Positions 41,594 to 43,041 of a stretch of DNA of 64,000 nt are shown piece by piece (the first letter of the stretch is position 1; each line of letters begins with the position of its first letter). Below the pieces are notes generated by a model that was not told where the DNA came from, did not search any database, and saw only the letters and a program-made list of their open reading frames with translations. Source of the DNA: Nonomuraea coxensis DSM 45129 (GTDB lineage Bacteria; Actinomycetota; Actinomycetes; Streptosporangiales; Streptosporangiaceae); contig NZ_CP068985.1 in the NCBI RefSeq assembly GCF_019397265.1, forward strand, positions 3,390,501-3,454,500, read 5' to 3'. The position numbers were made by a program, and so were the translations under genes.

Positions 41594-41806
41594 TCAGCCT
41601 GGCCGCTGCTGGTTCTCGATGTACTCCTCGGTGATCGACAGAGGTGCCCCGCCGCAGGACGCGGCGAAATACGAGAGGGACCAGGAACGGCCGCCCCACA
41701 GATACCGGCGGATGTGGACCGGAAACTCCTTGCGCAGCAGCCGCGCCGAGACGCCCTTGAGAGAGTCGACCAGAGTCGAGAGCGCCGCTGCAGGCTGTAG
41801 ACCACG
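41594..41806 (-). pseudogene. tnpA (Y1 HUH transposase) C-terminal remnant
   Basis: The minus-strand frame ending at TGA 41594-41596 reads ALSTLVDSLKGVSARLLRK, then YLWGGRSWSLSYFAASCGGAPL and SITEEYIENQQRPG. That is the C-terminal half of an IS200/IS605 TnpA, and it keeps the helix with the catalytic tyrosine (EEYIENQ). The upstream half with the HUH metal site is missing and a stop codon closes the frame at 41807-41809. It is therefore a 5'-truncated pseudogene. Confidence 0.85.
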
Positions 41807-41878
41807 CTACGACCCCGCCGGATATTGGGGTGTGTTTTCCAATGCGGTGACGTGGACCTGCTGATAGTTTGTTCGATT

Positions 41879-42973
41879 GTGAAACTGGTGGTGCAGGTGA
41901 AGCTCCTGCCGACGGCGGCGAATCTGGTCGCGGCACTGGCGTTCCAGCACCACTGTTTCCGCAACTTCGACCTGCGCAAGCACACCTACGACCGGATCAA
42001 GGCCGAGTTCGGGCCGGCCGCCCAGGCCGCCCAGCATGTGATCAAGAAGGTGTGCGACGCCTATCGCACCCTGCACGCCAACCTGGCCGCCGGGCACCTG
42101 GGCAAGCCCGGATCGCCGCGCCGGGCCGCCATCGAAGCCCGGCCGATCTCCTTCCGGTCGCCGGCGGCCCAGCCGTATGACGACCGGTGCCTGTCCTGGC
42201 AGCATGACGCGCGGACGGTGTCGATCTGGACGACCGCCGGGCGGCTGAAAGGTGTGACCTTCACCGGCTCGGCGCGGCAACTGGCGCTGCTGGCCGTCCA
42301 TCGACGCGGTGAGTCGGATCTGATCTGCCGGGACGGGATGTGGTTCCTGCATGCCACGGTCGAGGTGGCCGACCGGCCGCTGTCGGAACCGGACGGCTTT
42401 GTCGGGGTGGATCTGGGTATCGCCAACATCGCCACCACTTCCGATGGGGTCCGTCATCGCGGCAAGGGCCTGAACGCGGTCCGCCACCGTCATCGCCGGC
42501 TTCGCCGCCGTCTGCAGGCCAAGCGGACCAAGTCCGCCAAGCGGCTGCTGAAGCGGCGGCGTCGTCGCGAGGCGCGGTTCGCCGCGAATGTCAACCACAT
42601 CATCGCCAAGAGCATCGTGACCGAGGCAGAACGCACCGGGCGCGGGATCGCTCTGGAGGATCTCCAGGGCATCCGCGAACGGGTACGGCTTCGCAAGCCC
42701 CAGCGGGTCGCGCTGCATTCCTGGAGTTTCCACCAGCTCGGAGCTTTCATCGCCTACAAGGCGGTCCGGGCAGGAGTGGCGGTGATCGTCGTGGATGCGG
42801 CCTACACCTCACAGCAGTGCTCGCACTGCGGGCATGTGGACAAGCGCAACCGGCCTGACCAGGCCGCCTTCACATGTACGTCGTGCGGTTTCGCTGAGCA
42901 CGCCGACGTCAACGTAGCCCGCAACATCGCCTCACGCGGTGAGACGGGCTGGGCAGTGAGTCACGCTGCCTGA
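41879..42973 (+). CDS. tnpB: TnpB, RNA-guided nuclease of IS200/IS605-type elements (N-terminus shortened)
   Basis: 364 residues from GTG at 41879. RuvC-like catalytic residues are all present: Asp178 in GVDLGIAN, Glu260 in ALEDLQG, Asp343 in HADVNVARN. The zinc ribbon is complete (Cys314, 317, 333, 336). Its N-terminus runs VKLLPTAANLVAALAFQHHCFRNFDLRKHTYD. Typical relatives have roughly 15-20 more residues between the VKLLPT strand and the AANxV helix, so an in-frame deletion is likely. TnpB uses the RNA from the element's right end to cut matching DNA. Activity with the shortened N-terminus is doubtful. Confidence 0.9.
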   Translation: MKLVVQVKLLPTAANLVAALAFQHHCFRNFDLRKHTYDRIKAEFGPAAQAAQHVIKKVCDAYRTLHANLAAGHLGKPGSPRRAAIEARPISFRSPAAQPYDDRCLSWQHDARTVSIWTTAGRLKGVTFTGSARQLALLAVHRRGESDLICRDGMWFLHATVEVADRPLSEPDGFVGVDLGIANIATTSDGVRHRGKGLNAVRHRHRRLRRRLQAKRTKSAKRLLKRRRRREARFAANVNHIIAKSIVTEAERTGRGIALEDLQGIRERVRLRKPQRVALHSWSFHQLGAFIAYKAVRAGVAVIVVDAAYTSQQCSHCGHVDKRNRPDQAAFTCTSCGFAEHADVNVARNIASRGETGWAVSHAA

Positions 42974-43041
42974 CGCGGACCGGACCGTCGAAGCCATCGA
43001 CGGCGAGGAGCTGCAAGCTCGGTCGTTCACGGCCGAGAAGC
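42974..43041 (+). ncRNA. Possible omega-RNA 3' end / right element end
   Basis: The 68 bp after the tnpB stop contain GAGCTGCAAGCTCGG, then a hairpin with arms CTCGG (43018-43022) and CCGAG (43033-43037), then AAGCTGAC. TnpB guide RNAs end in such a hairpin at the element's right end, with the guide read from flanking DNA. The boundary and transcription are inferred. Confidence 0.4.

Follow-up and report, generated by a model that had tools for sequence, protein, structure and literature searches.

Three deletions in a remnant IS605-group element of Nonomuraea coxensis and its full-length sister copy

The feature described here is what remains of an IS605-group element (IS200/IS605 family) with divergent tnpA and tnpB, and is very probably a decaying relic. 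It lies in a stretch of 64,000 nucleotides from Nonomuraea coxensis DSM 45129, here called the window, which covers positions 3390501-3454500 of a genome consisting of a single contig of 9.07 Mb. The element carries three lesions, namely a deletion of the left end, an internal deletion in tnpA, and a deletion of 48 nt in tnpB. These were established by comparison with intact copies in sister species, with the empty site in two relatives, and with the genome's second, full-length copy, here called the sister copy. Two genus mates are N. wenchangensis (G052, NZ_FOHX01000001.1) and N. glycinis (G018, NZ_BMNK01000006.1). Coordinates are collected in Table 1.

Table 1. Features of the element and its surroundings (window positions).
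Feature	Position	Strand	Basis or remark
Whole element remnant, in tnpB orientation	41539..43045	+	Empty site in N. wenchangensis
Left junction: 29 bp of host DNA deleted together with the outer left end, which held the hairpin and the TAM TTTCAG	41536..41539	.	Empty sites L109, L110; intact left ends L041, L047
tnpA C-terminal fragment, residues 76-142 of 142, ending in the tyrosine helix (EEYIENQQRPG stop)	41594..41797	-	Match to intact TnpA
tnpA N-terminal fragment IRRGRSVVYSLQ, residues 2-23	41785..41850	-	Other frame than the C-terminal piece
tnpB, 364 aa	41879..42973	+	ORF and Pfam; alternative GTG start 41852
Point of 48-nt (16-codon) in-frame deletion	41914..41915	+	WED strand 1 / REC helix 1 boundary
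RuvC Asp178 codon	42410..42412	+	Invariant in alignment
RuvC Glu260 codon	42656..42658	+	Invariant in alignment
RuvC Asp343 codon	42905..42907	+	Invariant in alignment
Right end and 3' part of reRNA (omega-RNA) scaffold	42966..43045	+	Hairpins 42985-43003 and 43018-43037
Guide-coding flank TGCACAGGGTCGGGGCTGGA, host DNA	43046..43065	+	Directly 3' of TAM TTTCAG in the empty site
Downstream SDR gene; conserved upstream operator split by insertion and deletion	43088..43894	+	Comparison with relatives

N. wenchangensis and one further genome (G025) have no insertion at this site; in both, GTCGTGTTTCAG is followed directly by TGCACAGG. The adjacent host DNA at window positions 41538 and 43046 is 29 bp apart in the N. 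wenchangensis empty site. In the relatives, left ends begin after TTTCAG or a similar motif, and since TTTCAG adjoins the guide in the empty sites, the element appears to have been inserted 3' of TTTCAG. A functional member of the IS605 group has subterminal hairpins at both ends and is inserted 3' of a short TAM without target duplication, but the window element has only its right end. The loss of the left end was missed in the preliminary description. The element is immobile by itself.

A functional member also has a Y1 (HUH) TnpA divergent from tnpB. Here the remains of tnpA are divergent, but HUH is gone. TnpA had been described as reduced to its C-terminal 66 or so residues, with the tyrosine helix kept and HUH lost. 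The fragment and the loss of HUH are borne out, but the 5' truncation is not: the lesion is an internal deletion, and residues 2-23 survive. Because the N- and C-terminal pieces are both present, only residues 24-75 of the intact 142-residue TnpA, including the HUH motif (HVH), have been lost. The coding part of the C-terminal piece occupies 41597-41797, and its stop codon 41594-41596. This situation is ordinary, given that tnpA is broken or missing in 56 of 82 loci in a coarse screen, in which tnpA counted as intact if the best match anywhere in the locus spanned 120 or more of the 142 residues with no stop. In two loci, L039 and L132, weak matches of 44% led to a classification as broken, and their actual remnants were identified separately.

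Intact IS605-group copies from the same genus (L041, L046, L047 and L052) have the gene order and right end of the window element, and three of them (L046, L047 and L041) are 76-88% identical to it in nucleotide sequence over tnpB and the right end. Unlike them, the window element is missing 16 tnpB codons, residues 24-75 of tnpA and the outermost part of the left end. Elements with tnpB only are those of the IS1341 type; like these, the window element has TnpB and scaffold and no working TnpA, but unlike them it has remnants of tnpA and has lost its left end, and is a dead element and not a mobile tnpB-only one. TnpB elements lacking tnpA are known (PMC9956272).

The product of tnpB matches the Pfam domains Cas12f1-like_TNB (1.5e-21) and OrfB_IS605 (2.1e-7); with the curated models the scores are 76.7 bits for PF07282 (cut-off 26.3) and 31.6 for PF01385 (cut-off 30.5). 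A GTG at 41852, if used as the start, would add nine codons. As expected of a TnpB of the OrfB_IS605 / Cas12f-like type, the protein has the RuvC D-E-D triad and the TNB zinc ribbon. Residues D178, E260 and D343 and the ribbon cysteines C314, C317, C333 and C336 are unchanged across 43 aligned proteins, in agreement with what the preliminary description had said of them. The WED/REC lobe is incomplete, lacking 16 residues of REC helix 1. The protein is, from its sequence, homologous to TnpB but damaged.

The loss of some 15-20 residues near the N-terminus had been suspected, and comparison with the sister copy (L002) and other relatives sets it at exactly 16 codons. Relative to the 97%-identical sister copy, exactly 48 nt are absent between CTGCCGACG and GCGGCGAATC. 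The residues lost are PQQAAALEATLDAANR, positions 13-28 of a 380-residue protein, and make up the N-terminal half of REC helix 1. A tblastn search covered the loci of the genus scan plus 80 further loci. The gap occurs only in L065 and L086, both of which are the window's own copy, and every other row that spans the stretch retains the residues; 13 other rows begin at residue 18 or later and are uninformative on this point. Alignment with close TnpB proteins thus confirms the deletion, and since none of the relatives examined has the short N-terminus, the objection that full-length relatives might share it falls away. Conservation was scored in 42 relatives (41 plus L132; 42 of the 80 further loci were used), in which three of the deleted positions (A18, T22 and N27) never vary and three others (Q15, L19 and L23) hardly do.

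There are 32 TnpB matches in the genome, of which 30 are weak and distant, leaving only two close copies. The second, L002, is about 234 kb away and has a full-length tnpB. It is orthologous to L040 of N. wenchangensis, with flanks 96-97% identical, and the two have in common a tnpA lesion, a larger deletion with a 28-bp inversion, unlike that of the window copy. The sequences indicate that L002/L040 lost tnpA before N. wenchangensis split off. An empty site for the sister copy was sought in G025, and no clean junction was found. L002 (1350-2760) and L040/L074 have full-length orthologous tnpB genes beside a shared dead tnpA, and are a candidate retained orphan TnpB.

Codon tests excluded L073 (a tnpB fragment in N. 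wenchangensis) and three outgroups. Omega for the family is about 0.08-0.14. The pairwise value for L002-L040 is 0.26 (2dlnL 14.84, F3x4 frequencies), and a simple count gives pN/pS of 0.41-0.49 (p 0.007-0.02). Branch values are 0.41 for L002, and 0.28 (3' half) and 0.16 (5' half) for L040. The comparison pairs all lie below L002-L040, three from N. glycinis at 0.06-0.08 and two others at 0.15. Protein change between L002 and L040 therefore appears to be slower than neutral but looser than in the N. glycinis pairs, and given the difference between the count-based value and omega, a claim of retention for L002/L040 can be made with moderate confidence.

For the window copy the selection data are weak. 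Its terminal branch has an omega of 0.21 in the 3' half of tnpB, which includes time before the lesion, and differs from 1 at the borderline (2dlnL = 3.81). Purifying selection on the window tnpB before or even after the lesions is thus a borderline suggestion, and these sequences lend no support to selection on the shortened protein. The general proposal that TnpB can outlive its transposase is borne out at L002/L040 and not at the window copy, and the selection test proposed with it gave a weak signal at the window and a sub-neutral rate for L002-L040.

The history of the two copies in N. coxensis appears to be entangled. In a tree of the 5' half of tnpB, the window copy groups with L002 (support 0.92), whereas in the 3' half L002 groups with L040 (0.83). 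Leaving the deletion aside, the window and L002 tnpB genes have the same sequence over their first ~390 bp (41879-42270), and they differ by ~3.7% past about codon 182. The identity at the 5' end suggests that a recent gene conversion between the two copies is likely, which muddles dating. The stem uniting them has an omega of 4.1 in the 5' half, which is not significantly greater than 1 (2dlnL 1.20). Between codons 40 and 156 this stem has six amino-acid changes and no synonymous ones, including Leu to Pro at position 62, where Leu is invariant in 42 relatives. A stem with only amino-acid changes argues for relaxation, or for gene conversion from another copy. On these data L002 would be a better candidate than the window copy for a retained orphan TnpB. 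The wider proposal, that TnpB of this family is kept by its hosts after the death of the transposase, with L002/L040 under purifying selection and the window copy their gene-conversion partner, maybe with a guide-RNA or binding function, is an unlikely one.

In ISDra2 TnpB, as described in PMC10097598, the WED domain consists of residues 1-12 and 117-176, with REC (13-116) inserted after WED strand 1; WED and REC hold the TAM duplex between them, and WED together with RuvC binds the RNA scaffold. The deletion in the window TnpB starts at the WED/REC boundary. AlphaFold2 gave the window TnpB a mean pLDDT of 76.7, with the first ten-residue block at 35, strand 1 absent, and residues 91-160 mostly at 53-61 (one block at 70). 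The full-length L132 from N. wenchangensis, run with the same relatives in the alignment, reached 88.4, with residues 2-10 forming a strand and 13-40 a helix. L132 also departs from the window sequence outside the deleted stretch, so the result is a prediction and not a proof, and confidence is not a test of activity. The window TnpB has the fold and RuvC triad of ISDra2 TnpB and Cas12f-like nucleases (PDB 8h1j, 8exa, 8dzj), but its REC helix 1 is shorter by 16 residues and its fit is weaker: the model matches 8dzj with Z 18.6 (rmsd 10.5, 324 aligned) and 8h1j with 14.7 (11.8, 318), compared with 22.7 (7.5, 338) and 18.8 (8.5, 333) for the full-length relative. The deletion is thus predicted to cut REC helix 1 from 28 to about 12 residues and to unseat WED strand 1 and with it the WED domain, and the window TnpB probably no longer makes an active ribonucleoprotein.

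The right end is better preserved. Its last 80 nt, which include the scaffold, are 100% identical in the window copy and L002. An Rfam gathering scan of the window gave no match, and the reRNA was therefore analysed by alignment; a tRNA scan of the window found none. An alignment of 49 distinct sequences has 96.7% of the hairpin cells paired and 66 cells changed on both sides, and the covariation score was reached by 0 of 500 shuffles; the count of pairs with changes on both sides, five, does not exceed that of shuffles (280 of 500). Conservation and covariation together indicate that the scaffold is a constrained structure, still carried by the window copy. A search of the whole genome for TAM plus 15 nt of guide, allowing up to three mismatches, found only the element's own RE junction, where the TAM has been lost, and a search for TTCAG plus 9 nt, allowing one mismatch, found nothing. 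The sister copy's guide found its own RE junction and one other site, with three mismatches.

These results bear on the suggestion that the short TnpB was kept after mobility was lost, as an RNA-guided nuclease or a TldR-like regulator that binds its target. The frame is open, the RuvC triad, zinc ribbon and scaffold are intact, and in relatives with the empty site the guide, with its TAM, has a match upstream of the SDR gene. Such a role is nevertheless very unlikely, as the deletion strikes the WED/REC junction needed for binding of TAM and RNA, is absent from all relatives examined, and is found in a genome without a TAM-bearing target. Like TldR proteins, the window TnpB stands without its transposase, but TldRs lose the nuclease site, whereas the window copy does the opposite, keeping its RuvC triad with a damaged target-recognition part and no TAM-plus-guide target in its genome. 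TldRs are TnpB-derived RNA-guided transcription regulators, and provide a precedent for exaptation of TnpB (PMC13418256).

A natural, functional variant of a TnpB subfamily with a short N-terminus is highly improbable: the deletion is in frame and removes whole codons, but it includes invariant positions, the residues are kept in all covering tblastn rows but the window's own two, and the idea is in part contradicted by full-length relatives without the deletion. Excision requires both ends, as established for IS608 and ISDra2, and with the left-end hairpin and TAM deleted the window element would not be mobilised even in trans, so that a non-autonomous element still moved by another IS200/IS605 TnpA of the genome, where open TnpA frames exist (the best 71% identical), is largely refuted and scarcely credible; there are moreover only two close copies, of which L002 has different tnpA lesions. 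In Microtetraspora sp. NBRC 16547, relatives with tnpA deleted occupy several sites (L137, L142, L144 and L145); each has a similar, short remnant of tnpA, a left end flanked by TTCAG and an intact right end, and their guides differ. These tnpB elements apparently spread by TnpA acting in trans, and are a point in favour of that reading.

Of the two fates offered in the preliminary description, repurposed nuclease finds no positive support for the window copy, and decaying relic is favoured by the three deletions, the lost left end, the predicted loss of the WED/REC junction and the lack of a TAM-bearing target. The element would have entered upstream of the SDR gene, immediately 3' of the TTTCAG TAM, as a single strand in the manner usual for the family. 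Separate deletions would then have taken 16 codons of tnpB, the central part of tnpA with HUH, and the TAM along with the outer left end, and without the left-end hairpin excision would be impossible even by a related TnpA. The open frame, the in-frame deletion, and a right end and scaffold exactly as in L002 stand against decay; we suggest that RuvC triad, zinc ribbon and scaffold are still present because the decay is recent, rather than through any demonstrated retention. On this basis the window TnpB would have lost its activity and would have no role in the host.

The insertion also affected its surroundings. Of 19 relatives examined, 18 carry the motif AnCAAGnnCTTGnT no more than 200 bp upstream of the SDR gene, and in most of them a conserved TTTCAG comes after it (46 genomes had a match, and the set consists of loci from the best 20, own genome included). 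The comparison covers 41449-43088 and L089-L108: the relatives have a KstR2-type operator AGCAAGCNCTTGAT and the conserved TTTCAG upstream of the SDR gene, and in the window genome the operator is cut. The motif is the KstR2 motif of mycobacteria (PMC3068626). The insertion used the TTTCAG adjoining the operator, the left-end deletion took the operator's right half, and an exact operator site was sought in the window and none is left. The conserved, putative KstR2-type operator of the SDR gene thus appears to have been destroyed by insertion and deletion. A scan of the empty site for the sigma-70 consensus found nothing, so that any 'promoter' there is a matter of conservation only. Further upstream, at 38950-40196, a gene for a MerR-type regulator is divergent from a metallo-beta-lactamase-fold gene, which has weak, below-cut-off similarity to AHL lactonases.

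The window element alone is an ordinary decayed insertion sequence, useful mainly for illustration. Since intact relatives, a sister copy and an empty site can all be compared with it, the kinds of lesion can be read, and a dead TnpB can be separated from the one at L002/L040 that survived its transposase through a speciation event. The cutting of the operator from the SDR gene is a regulatory consequence that can be tested. If L002/L040 is under selection, this would be relevant to the question of how TnpB comes to be kept where TnpA is lost.
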